DNA from: Archaeoglobales archaeon
GTDB lineage: Archaea > Halobacteriota > Archaeoglobi > Archaeoglobales > Archaeoglobaceae
Assembly: GCA_030055525.1 (NCBI GenBank)
Contig: JASFYJ010000011.1
Coordinates: 1 to 38,343 of the forward strand
Length of the DNA: 38,343 bases
Direction: 5' to 3'
Positions 25,207 through 29,170 of the stretch are shown here, in pieces (position 1 is the stretch's first letter; each line of letters opens with the position of its first letter). The position numbers and the translations under genes were made by a program. Below the pieces are notes generated by a model, which searched no databases, had not been told where the DNA came from, and saw nothing but the letters and a program-made list of their open reading frames with translations.

Positions 25207-26847
25207 GTGCTTCGTGTAGCATTGTTGGAGTTAGCACAAAAGAAAAAGAAGATGAGCTCAAAGTACGTTCTTTCAATTTTACTTGTCCTGCTTTTATCTT
25301 TAGCGGCATTCTATATTTCAATAACCTCCGGTTTTGAGTCAGATAAGCGACTATATACGGCAAATTTGGCAATTTCCGATTCCTTTACTACGGGAAGCAA
25401 TCCGGACATTCTTATATATGAAAAAATTATTATTATGACTTCAAAAAGTGACAGAAGTTTAGCCGCAGCGGATGAGGCTTTAGGCATTCTAAGACAACAG
25501 TATCTTGAAAAACTATCGCAAAATAGCGAAGCCTTTCCCGTGTTGGTTTCGGTTAGGTACCTAGAAAGACGAAGCGTGGCCGAAGTCGTCAACTCTTCAA
25601 AGTTACCGAACCTGCAATATAACGAATCAAAATCATCCACAAATTCTACAAAGCAAATAGATGTCTTTCCGAAGGAAACTGCAGATTCCAAGAGTGATGA
25701 CTTGAAAGACGATTTATCTGAATTTTTGAAGATTGAGAGTTTTCAAGATTCTAAACGAGAGATTAAAGATGTGGGTTCTTTTAGTACAAACGAATATGTT
25801 TATCCGGAACAGCTTTCTATAAGAACTCCCTTTGATAAACTTGTTTTGGCTATGATCTTCCTGATTCCATCTTACTTCTTTGTCCAGCTCTTTTCATCGT
25901 CATTTTTAGAGGATAAATTCTCTAGGAGGTTGGAAATCATAATTTCTATTTTTAATAATTATGAAATTGTATTTGGAAAGATGCTACCATACTTCGCTGC
26001 ATCTATTCTGGCAATGGCATCGATATCCCTATTTCTCAATTCTTCAGCGTTTTTCTTTGCTATCCCAGTTGTATTTTTACTTTTTTCCTTCCATTCAGCC
26101 ATAGTTGTGTTTTCAAGAAGTTATAGAGAAGCTACGATGCTTCTTCTCATTTTTTCATTGCTGGTTACTGTTTATGCTGTAATGCCAGTGGTATTTCCAA
26201 TTTCCGAATTTTCAAGAATTTCTCCTCTAACTGCTCTTTTAAGATGCCTCGAAAATAAAGCCACCGATCTTCAAGATTTTTTACCGGCTTTCTACGTGAT
26301 ATTTACACTTGGCGCTTTTTTGTTCTATTTGACCTGCAAACTTCTATATCCCGAATACCTGTATTCTACAGGAATTTTAGAAAAGATCTTTGCAGCTTTT
26401 TACGGAGGAAAAATAAAGTCATTTCTTTTAGGATTTTTTGGAGTTTCACTTGCGCTATTTGTAGAATTTTTTATAATTTTTATTATATTTTTAGTTCCGA
26501 AGTCTTTAGCCCTACCGCTATCTTTGATTCTCGTAGCTGGAGTCGAGGAAATTACAAAAGGATTATCAATAGCAGCAAATAGAGATCTAATCTCTAGCGT
26601 ATCTACAGCACTTGGCTTTTTTACAGCCGAAAAGCTTCTTTTGCTACTTAACATCTCCTTAGAGCTTTTGACGCCATTCTTGGCATCATTTTTATTGCTA
26701 CCCGCCATGTTGCATACGGCTACAGCTTTAATTTTTTACTTTTTTATAAAATTTGGTTTCTGGAAAGCTTGCGCAGCATCGAGCCTAATCCACTTCCTTT
26801 ACAACTACACGGTGGTGATTACCATTGCTAGTAGCCTTAATATCTAA
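25207..26847 (+). CDS. ABC-2-type permease fused to a PrsW-type intramembrane protease domain
   Basis: This 546-residue membrane protein has two parts. Residues 1–390 look like a NatB-type ABC-2 permease: a first membrane segment near 20–40, a polar external domain of about 165 residues, then several helices with EDKFSRRLEIIISIF near 235–249, the usual coupling region. Residues about 400–546 carry the four PrsW/M82 protease motifs: E447-E448-x-x-K451, F471-x3-E475, H503, and H529-x3-N533, within hydrophobic helices. An intact glutamate/histidine metalloprotease site is therefore plausible. The start is GTG 25207. The gene overlaps the next permease gene by 23 bases. No ATPase gene is adjacent. 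The external domain is rich in Ser, Lys and Asp. Confidence 0.75.
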   Translation: MLRVALLELAQKKKKMSSKYVLSILLVLLLSLAAFYISITSGFESDKRLYTANLAISDSFTTGSNPDILIYEKIIIMTSKSDRSLAAADEALGILRQQYLEKLSQNSEAFPVLVSVRYLERRSVAEVVNSSKLPNLQYNESKSSTNSTKQIDVFPKETADSKSDDLKDDLSEFLKIESFQDSKREIKDVGSFSTNEYVYPEQLSIRTPFDKLVLAMIFLIPSYFFVQLFSSSFLEDKFSRRLEIIISIFNNYEIVFGKMLPYFAASILAMASISLFLNSSAFFFAIPVVFLLFSFHSAIVVFSRSYREATMLLLIFSLLVTVYAVMPVVFPISEFSRISPLTALLRCLENKATDLQDFLPAFYVIFTLGAFLFYLTCKLLYPEYLYSTGILEKIFAAFYGGKIKSFLLGFFGVSLALFVEFFIIFIIFLVPKSLALPLSLILVAGVEEITKGLSIAANRDLISSVSTALGFFTAEKLLLLLNISLELLTPFLASFLLLPAMLHTATALIFYFFIKFGFWKACAASSLIHFLYNYTVVITIASSLNI

Positions 26848-27814
26848 GGAGATAAAAAACTCTTTAAGGGAGAGGACAATTGCAAGTGTTATTTTACTCG
26901 TTTTCTTTATTGCAGCTTTTTCCAGTGTAATAACCTATGGACTCATCTATCTCTACAACCCGGGCTATTCAAACTACCCGATTAAGATGGCTATCGTAGG
27001 TGATTGTGGGGTAGGAATAGATGGTATATGCACGACTTCAGAGAGGGCTTTTGAGATGTTTTACACCAATAAAGTGGATGCTATTGTAATAATAAAAACC
27101 ATAGAAAAGACCTATGTCGATTTAATACTTCCAGAAGATGATTATAGAGCCCCCATCGCTTTATCTAAAATAAAAAGAGATTTAATAAAAATTGAAGAAG
27201 AATTGAGAAAGAAAAACAACGCGACAATTTTCGAATACAAGGTGATTTATCAAAATCAGGAATTAAAGGTTCCTGAAGGCGTATCCATAGCTTTCAGATT
27301 CGTGTATCTTATCCTGATCCCACTTCTGTGTATAACTACAGCAATCGTAGCGGCCGGGATGGTTATAGATAGCCTAACAGAGGAGTTCGAAAGAGGAACG
27401 ATAGAAATCCTGCTAGCATCACCTTTAAGCGAAAGAATGATCTTATTTTCGAAGATAGTTTCTCCGATGCTGGTTTCAAGTGTATTAACAACTCTTTGGA
27501 TTGCTTTGTTGATTTTAAACGGAATTGAAATACACAATCCACCACTCGTATTCATAGCAGGTGTATCCTTAGCGTCAATTTTTATTTTAACTGCTTATAT
27601 AATAGCTCTAAAATTAAAAGATAGAGAAAGAAGTCAATTTCTTTTTTCAATCATAGCTACAGGAGTTTTGCCGGTTCTAATCACAAAATCTTGGAGTCCT
27701 GCAGTCATCTGTGGCAGAATTGCTGCAGGAAGTGACTTTAGATTAATTCCTACGATTTTAACTATCCTCTCTATACTACTGGTACCTACAGTGAGGTTTG
27801 TAAAAGATCAGTAG
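26825..27814 (+). CDS. ABC-2-type permease subunit
   Basis: The 329-residue protein has an N-terminal membrane segment (residues about 17–43), an external domain to about 150, then five or six helices. The sequence DSLTEEFERGTIEILLASPLSERM near 180–205 is the conserved cytoplasmic loop of NatB/COG1668-type permeases. The start is TTG 26825, supported by GGTGAT at about 26813–26818; no other usable start lies nearby. The overlap with the PrsW-fused permease suggests the two make a heterodimeric transmembrane part. The cargo and the ATPase partner are unknown. It overlaps the convergent bpsA gene by seven bases. Confidence 0.82.
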   Translation: MLVALISKEIKNSLRERTIASVILLVFFIAAFSSVITYGLIYLYNPGYSNYPIKMAIVGDCGVGIDGICTTSERAFEMFYTNKVDAIVIIKTIEKTYVDLILPEDDYRAPIALSKIKRDLIKIEEELRKKNNATIFEYKVIYQNQELKVPEGVSIAFRFVYLILIPLLCITTAIVAAGMVIDSLTEEFERGTIEILLASPLSERMILFSKIVSPMLVSSVLTTLWIALLILNGIEIHNPPLVFIAGVSLASIFILTAYIIALKLKDRERSQFLFSIIATGVLPVLITKSWSPAVICGRIAAGSDFRLIPTILTILSILLVPTVRFVKDQ

Positions 27815-28824
27815 GGAGTTGCCCAGCTCTCCTCGTCCTTGTATACTTCCTCATCTATCTTCATCTCTCCCTCCACTAGTGGCTTTGGATCTTTAACGGC
27901 CTCTATTCTAAAGAAGGTCGATTTATACCAAGGATAGTCTGACTTTACTCCAAGATTTTTTACTATCGGTAACTTCTCTTGGAAAGTAAAGAAGTTCCTT
28001 TCATCATCCGGATATACACTGAATTTTCTGATCATGTCCGTAATAACGAACCCCATATCGTATATCATCTTTTCAATCTCGTACCATTTTCTTCTCGAAG
28101 CTTCAAGAGTCGTAATCCCAAAGTATCCGGCACTTCCAACCCCCTTCAAGGTTGAAACGGCTCTTGAGAAAAACAACTTCAATCCAGGGATGGTTTCTAC
28201 AGGATCGGTCACAAATATATCGAACTTCCTTCTGAGCTCTTCTGGAAAAGCTTGCTGAACGTCATACACCATGGCCTCAATTCTTAAACCGTACTCCTTT
28301 GCAGCGTTGTTTATGAAATTTACGAGTCTCTCGTCTATATCTACAACAAATATTTTTTCAGGTAGATCTGTTAGGGCCGCGGCTATGCTGAACAGATCAT
28401 CATCTCCAACAACGAATATCTTCCCGTAGAGATCCCCACGCTCGTGTATAAACTCGACTCTTCTAATTATACCTTCCGGACTTATAAAACCTTGATCGTA
28501 AACATCCACTGCCTCGGGGCGGTTTTTAACTATTTCTCTATACCTTCTGAGTATCTCTGAAAAATGTTTATTTATAACGTATCCTGTCCCCTCGCAATTT
28601 ATGCAGCAGTAATTCCCAAAATTTCTGAGATTTTTTGCTATCTCTCTTCCAGATTTTGTAAGTTTAACCTTCCCTCTGTCAACTTCTATTATGTTCTCTC
28701 TGAGCAGTTCCTTGAATACTTCAAAAAATTCGTTAAGTGAGGCATCTTGCCTGTCTATAAGCTCGTAAACGCTTACTTCTCCTACTAGCAGAGCTTGGAG
28801 TATCTGCCTTTTTATTCTATCCAT
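27808..28824 (-). CDS. bpsA: N(4)-bis(aminopropyl)spermidine synthase (branched-chain polyamine synthase)
   Basis: BpsA adds two aminopropyl groups from decarboxylated SAM to the same nitrogen of spermidine, giving a branched polyamine found in hyperthermophiles. The 338-residue product has an N-terminal winged-helix-like part, then a Rossmann-type transferase domain. The key GDDD motif (GDDDLFSIAAA) is at 141–144 and TDPVETIPG supplies further substrate contacts; both fit the DUF43/BpsA family. The C-terminal acidic tail closes the active site in the characterised enzyme. ATG 28824 is one base after the speD stop with GGGGAT ahead of it; an open frame reaching back to 28920 lies inside speD and is not used. 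Confidence 0.93.
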   Translation of the reverse strand: MDRIKRQILQALLVGEVSVYELIDRQDASLNEFFEVFKELLRENIIEVDRGKVKLTKSGREIAKNLRNFGNYCCINCEGTGYVINKHFSEILRRYREIVKNRPEAVDVYDQGFISPEGIIRRVEFIHERGDLYGKIFVVGDDDLFSIAAALTDLPEKIFVVDIDERLVNFINNAAKEYGLRIEAMVYDVQQAFPEELRRKFDIFVTDPVETIPGLKLFFSRAVSTLKGVGSAGYFGITTLEASRRKWYEIEKMIYDMGFVITDMIRKFSVYPDDERNFFTFQEKLPIVKNLGVKSDYPWYKSTFFRIEAVKDPKPLVEGEMKIDEEVYKDEESWATPY

Positions 28825-28825
28825 T

Positions 28826-29170
28826 TTATCCCCTATCGAGCATATAATGTCTGTATGACTTCGGTTTAAACTTTTCGAGGAACAGTTTAAAAGCCTTTTC
28901 CGCCTTTGAAGGGTCTCCACAGGTAAAGATGTCCAAGTTTACAAGCTCATACTCCGGCCATGTATGCAAAGATACATGGCTCTCGGAGATTAAAACAACC
29001 CCAGTGACACCATGGGGATTGAACTGCTTATATACGCTGCCAACTTTGGTTAGCTTCGCCTCATTTACCACCTCCTCCACTATACGCCTCACAGTCTCTT
29101 CCCTCGCTATGAGCTCTGGATCTACTCCATAAAGTTCTGCAATAATATGTCGTCCAATTATCATAGTCAT
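28826..29170 (-). CDS. speD: S-adenosylmethionine decarboxylase proenzyme
   Basis: SpeD makes decarboxylated SAM, the aminopropyl donor for polyamines. The 114-residue proenzyme cleaves itself between E63 and S64 in ISESHVSLHTWPEY, turning Ser64 into the pyruvoyl group. The catalytic cysteine is C84 (IFTCG). A strong GGAGG lies five bases before the ATG at 29170; an ATG two codons later is also possible. The one-base gap to bpsA makes a two-gene operon that supplies donor and final transferase together. Confidence 0.96.
   Translation of the reverse strand: MTMIIGRHIIAELYGVDPELIAREETVRRIVEEVVNEAKLTKVGSVYKQFNPHGVTGVVLISESHVSLHTWPEYELVNLDIFTCGDPSKAEKAFKLFLEKFKPKSYRHYMLDRG

Follow-up and report, generated by a model that had tools for sequence, protein, structure and literature searches.

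A single reading frame in a 38,343-nucleotide stretch of Archaeoglobales DNA, analysed whole and called the window here, encodes a fusion of an ABC-2 permease with a PrsW-type domain, a putative intramembrane protease. The fusion supplies one permease half of a heteromeric ABC-2 transporter; a second permease (perm2), encoded downstream, supplies the other, and the apparent ATPase partner is encoded by an unlinked gene. A first-pass annotation had proposed the fusion and its motifs and missed the heteromeric transporter. The reading frame that it gave is exact (25207-26847, plus strand), the strand opposite is full of stops, and E447, E448, K451, F471, E475, H503, H529 and N533 are all where it placed them. 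Conservation, profiles and predicted fold together support the reading of two domains with an intact PrsW-type set.

25207..26847, plus strand: fusion of ABC-2 permease and PrsW-type intramembrane protease, 546 aa, GTG start
25207..26361, plus strand: ABC-2 permease half, residues 1-385; six TM helices predicted by AlphaFold2, positive-inside pattern, ABC2_membrane_3 in relatives
26362..26844, plus strand: PrsW-type domain, residues 386-546; five predicted TM helices, catalytic-motif residues in TM8-TM11
26545..26559, plus strand: motif 1, EExxK (E447, E448, K451), TM8; 106/106 relatives
26617..26634, plus strand: motif 2, FxxxEK (F471, E475, K476), TM9; 106/106 relatives
26713..26715, plus strand: motif 3, H503, the PrsW-specific histidine, TM10; 104/104 relatives
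26791..26805, plus strand: motif 4, HxxYN (H529, Y532, N533), TM11; H and Y in 104/104 relatives, the last position N in 90 and D in 14

Conservation counts come from an alignment of 106 distinct relatives spanning two domains of life, 104 of which have letters at H503, H529 and Y532. No relative has a substitution at E447, E448, K451, F471, E475, K476, H503, H529 or Y532, so the glutamates and histidines on whose conservation among orthologues the first reading depended are kept throughout. Because these residues are invariant, we reject a chance constellation or a pseudogene. The permease half has invariant residues of its own (R304, Y323, P327, S339 and P340, among others). In a tree of 75 sequences no end branch is longer than that of the window protein, which shares at most about 40% identity with any relative included, yet it retains all nine invariant motif residues. 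Given this divergence, we took the evidence for family assignment from the family. The spacing between EE and FxxxE is 34-35 residues in stand-alone archaeal PrsW proteins and in most fusions, and 24 in the window protein.

Scanned alone against Pfam and NCBIfam, the window protein matches no PrsW or ABC-2 model, which we attribute to its divergence since its relatives do match. ABC2_membrane_3 is matched by 23 of 43 family members (best E 4.3e-14) and the PrsW-protease model PF13367 by 15 of 79 C-terminal domains (best E 1e-8); several relatives exceed the Pfam cut-off of 23.5 bits for PF13367, for example with 33.2 bits in genome G092. In profile-profile comparisons, where E-values are pairwise and carry no database correction, the C-terminal domain aligns with 27 stand-alone archaeal PrsW (PF13367) proteins at E 2.7e-9 (hhalign) and the N-terminal part aligns with the neighbouring perm2 at E 6e-13; controls with the two parts exchanged are not significant (E 0.35 and 0.06). 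At the level of the family, and not of the single sequence, the C-terminal domain can be placed in the PrsW family (PF13367/M82), and the N-terminal part, through its relatives and perm2, is an ABC-2 permease (PF12698/PF12679). The profile matches foreseen for both halves are thus found in the family, and the window sequence by itself lacks them.

Membership in the CPBP/Rce1 family (PF02517) was considered and rejected. The domain has EExxK and FxxxE instead of EExxxR, FxxxH and HxxxN, and just 1 of 79 C-terminal domains matched PF02517 (E 0.019). Both the order of the motifs and the additional histidine in the penultimate core helix match the description of PrsW and not that of the Rce1-type CAAX proteases (PMC4602095).

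AlphaFold2 models the whole fusion protein with a mean pLDDT of 80 and the C-terminal domain with 91.8. The single low-confidence stretch, residues 121-194 (window 25567-25788), is rich in Ser, Lys and Asp, is weakly conserved across the family and lies inside a large predicted extracytoplasmic loop (residues 42-207) of the permease half. Eleven TM helices with the N-terminus inside are predicted; the helix count agrees with the charge alternation over 106 sequences, in which mean net charge is +3.2 at the N-terminus, -7.2 in the TM1-2 loop, +1.5 in TM8-9 and +2.3 in TM10-11. The prediction includes an ABC-2 layout of six TM helices, a cytoplasmic N-terminus and a large TM1-TM2 loop. The motif-bearing helices (432-457, 461-482, 485-516 and 518-543) follow the order of TMH3-6 of the PrsW model, as do their motifs (PMC4602095).

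A PDB sequence search with the family profiles found no relative. Foldseek results for the full-length model are mostly noise, and the only sensible matches are ABC transporters (7o0y_E of NosDFY, TMt 0.49, and 8k1p). Against the PDB, the C-terminal domain best matches two APH-1B chains of gamma-secretase (probability 1.00, TM-score 0.62-0.66, but E 0.19-0.29); APH-1 itself is considered a non-catalytic part of that enzyme. Given these E-values and a non-catalytic relative, an APH-1-like fold alone does not show catalysis. APH-1 and PrsW belong to one superfamily (PMC4602095). The nearest solved fold being non-catalytic, the domain could be a dead, APH-1-like scaffold that stabilises the transporter; we consider this improbable, as every glutamate and histidine of the PrsW set is unsubstituted in 106 divergent relatives.

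In the predicted topology, E447, E448, F471, E475, H503, H529 and N533 are spread over four successive helices, each of them 9-15 residues away from the cytoplasmic helix end, and K451 is 6 residues away from its own. The motif residues would thus sit in the cytoplasmic half of the membrane, at matching depths compatible with a single site. This depth bears on whether the domain removes C-terminal TM sorting signals from surface proteins while the transporter feeds or clears the products. Halobacteriota, the main host phylum, include surface-layer archaea. Myxosortase, a CPBP relative, sorts proteins with C-terminal tripartite tags (PMC11980579). With the predicted active site placed towards the cytoplasm, we give surface-protein processing little chance.

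The fusion gene has company. Its 3' end overlaps perm2 by 23 bases, and the usual order in relatives is ATPase (mostly divergent), fusion and second permease. Across 81 loci, perm2 lies downstream in 76, an ABC_tran ATPase upstream in 63, and both are present in 60. In the window genome, a metallo-beta-lactamase-fold gene lies next to the fusion on its upstream side, and the apparent partner ATPase is unlinked.

26825..27814, plus strand: second ABC-2 permease (perm2), 329 aa, TTG start; Pfam ABC2_membrane_2, 1.8e-13
G000:C14:85880-86692 (L154:7881-8696): ABC ATPase, apparent fusion partner, unlinked; closest ATPase in the genome

This ATPase clearly tops the other ABC ATPases of the genome (5e-74 versus 3e-47). 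Within the Archaeoglobaceae, perm2 is distributed exactly as the fusion, in the same 12 of 30 genomes, and relatives of the ATPase, mostly unlinked, occur in 11 of these 12 genomes and in 1 of the 18 without the fusion (Fisher p 2.5e-6, ignoring kinship of genomes). Both genomes that break this pattern are incomplete assemblies (G054, 54%; G050, 89%). No ORF of at least 80 aa beside the ATPase matches the second-permease profile. By family score, the ATPase is nearest to the drug-exporter types DrrA and GldA, though far below their cut-offs, which speaks against the peptide-clearing role preferred below; its matches in PADLOC are generic only.

Two minus-strand genes (370 and 114 aa; window 27808-29170), whose products may resemble a branched polyamine synthase and a SAM decarboxylase, follow perm2 and keep this place in eight Archaeoglobi loci, including the window. 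The kept gene order makes the locus look ancestral, with the ATPase moved or displaced. In G085 (L063/L038), where the ATPase is co-directional, the fusion gene looks split or frameshifted into ORFs of 363 and 354 aa; this could be a sequencing error or a genuine split.

A survey of archaeal genomes for the same fusion, suggested at the outset, finds it widespread. In a protein search of 99 genomes, 50 have the fusion gene, mostly as one reading frame over both domains, and a pattern search of public genomes adds 78 loci in Archaeoglobi, Methanomicrobia, Methanophagales, Halobacteria and Chloroflexota. Among 295 Halobacteriota genomes the family occurs in 147, nearly always as a single copy; for good genomes the count is 140 of 234, and for genera 61 of 107. 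The cassette is not essential, since half of the Halobacteriota genomes sampled are without it; none of the nine further genomes in the window's genus has it. Occurrence in Chloroflexota is sporadic (2 of 201 genomes). The Chloroflexota fusions form one supported clade in the tree, so transfer between Halobacteriota and Chloroflexota is likely. A 169-aa frame elsewhere (G044:C39:12813-13265) covers residues 374-515 of the fusion and nothing else (E 3e-10); it may be a fragment or an independent copy of the protease domain.

So, what might a protease built into a transporter do? The first-pass annotation suggested that the transporter exports and cuts at once, the thing cut being its cargo, a signal peptide or a regulator. 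Both domains hold up; the coupling between them stays an inference. We clustered 755 genes around 92 fusions, considering ORFs of at least 80 aa, and found lineage-specific synteny only, with no shared cargo or regulator gene around the cassette. This counts against a dedicated cargo.

Our preferred reading, a tentative one that may well prove wrong, is that the fusion makes up half of an exporter or extractor of the heteromeric ABC-2 kind and has an active intramembrane protease domain, so that membrane peptides are cut and cleared in one machine. The complex would consist of two permease halves, the fusion and perm2, and the ATPase encoded on contig C14. The PrsW-type domain, acting as a glutamyl or metallo-type intramembrane protease, would work close to the cytoplasmic leaflet and cut hydrophobic peptides or single TM segments, such as signal-peptide remnants or stuck segments of tails or lipoproteins, and the ATP-driven permease pair would then move the fragments out of the bilayer. 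Joining cutting and clearing in this way would be a housekeeping role. The nearly single-copy occurrence and the lack of a recurrent cargo gene fit a general substrate pool and, with the cytoplasm-proximal predicted site, are the reason that we favour general clearing of membrane peptides.

PptAB has been linked to Eep processing, and the proposed machine would join in one what the PptAB-Eep and Ecs-RasP pairs keep separate. In Firmicutes, EcsAB with RasP and PptAB with Eep are likewise functional pairs of ABC transporter and intramembrane protease (for Ecs and RasP, PMC2996298; for PptAB, PMC7564271). When Ecs is lost, RasP proteolysis is inhibited, and a role in ridding the membrane of peptides has been proposed for Ecs (PMC2996298); PptAB is an exporter of Rgg quorum-sensing peptides (PMC7564271). 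RasP and Eep are separate site-2 (M50) proteins, whereas here a PrsW-type protease is built into the permease.

Almost as good as general clearing is regulated proteolysis gated by ATP. The ABC part would act mainly as a sensor, or as the power stroke, and would either open the protease or bring it a particular membrane protein, with transport secondary; the target might be an anti-sigma-like regulator or a surface protein, in parallel to the FtsEX-type ABC proteins that gate hydrolases. On its own we rate this possible, though we would sooner expect it to be wrong than right. The conserved large extracytoplasmic loop, in which D67, P111 and P200 are invariant in the family alignment, could sense the state of the envelope, and the low-copy, cargo-less distribution suits a regulatory system. 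Site-1 cleavage in B. subtilis is extracytoplasmic, unlike what the predicted position of the motif residues in the cytoplasmic half suggests for the fusion. In favour of a regulatory role, PrsW of B. subtilis is a site-1 protease of anti-sigma W (PMC4602095). Against gating, the cassette has no conserved regulator gene adjoining it, and the ABC-2 fold with two permease halves suits a true transporter.

A dedicated cargo, like the dead scaffold, is less likely than either general clearing or regulated proteolysis. Peptidase-containing ABC transporters (C39/PCAT) resemble the fusion in joining protease and exporter in one polypeptide. Their peptidase is a soluble cysteine enzyme, the exporter is of type IV and the cargo is a dedicated leader peptide; the fusion has an intramembrane domain, an ABC-2 permease and no conserved cargo gene. 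On the cargo model, the domain would act as the C39 peptidase does and cut the leader or precursor of a dedicated exported peptide, and PrsW domains have indeed been tied to the processing and export of polymorphic toxins (PMC3482391). With no gene of at least 80 aa conserved around the cassette across lineages and no PADLOC match for the fusion, cargo maturation seems unlikely.

Intramembrane proteases are usually thought to be ATP-independent. A more speculative and frankly doubtful extension is that the fusions form a class of ATP-driven intramembrane proteolysis, in which an ABC transporter would pull segments out of the membrane and pass them directly to a PrsW-type site in the same polypeptide; such a class, across Halobacteriota and some Chloroflexota, would be uncharacterised.

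An ABC permease and an intramembrane protease in one chain are already known from the curated family NF041647 (NCBIfam, ABC_perm_CPBP), which by model name and length is also a single chain, of about 636 aa, with an ABC-type permease and a CPBP-type protease. The permease-protease fusion is therefore a known kind of protein, and the PrsW-type version is a variant. The two protease parts belong to the same superfamily; the fusion has the PrsW set with FxxxE and the extra TM10 histidine, not the CPBP set. None of the 43 fusion members matches NF041647 (cut-off 435 bits) at E<=1, and loci L144, L118, L114 and L042 likewise gave no match. In the window genome (G000) the model picks up just one protein, a different permease on contig C11 (33.8 bits), and no protein in the 201 Chloroflexota genomes exceeds the cut-off. 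Stand-alone PrsW (PF13367, M82) shares EExxK, FxxxE, H and HxxxN/D in four successive TM helices. The fusion differs in that the domain sits behind an ABC-2 permease and FxxxEK replaces FxxxEN, and Archaeoglobi fusions have a shorter loop between motifs 1 and 2.

In the open-access literature we found no paper on the PrsW-type fusion, and so far a protease has been proposed to hand over to an ABC transporter only where the two are separate proteins (Ecs/RasP, PptAB/Eep). With the two joined permanently and the catalytic residues intact, in about half of the sampled Halobacteriota genomes, haloarchaea included, the coupling can be put to a direct test. The one annotated haloarchaeal record that we inspected names the fusion only 'ABC transporter permease subunit', and its protease part therefore goes unseen.
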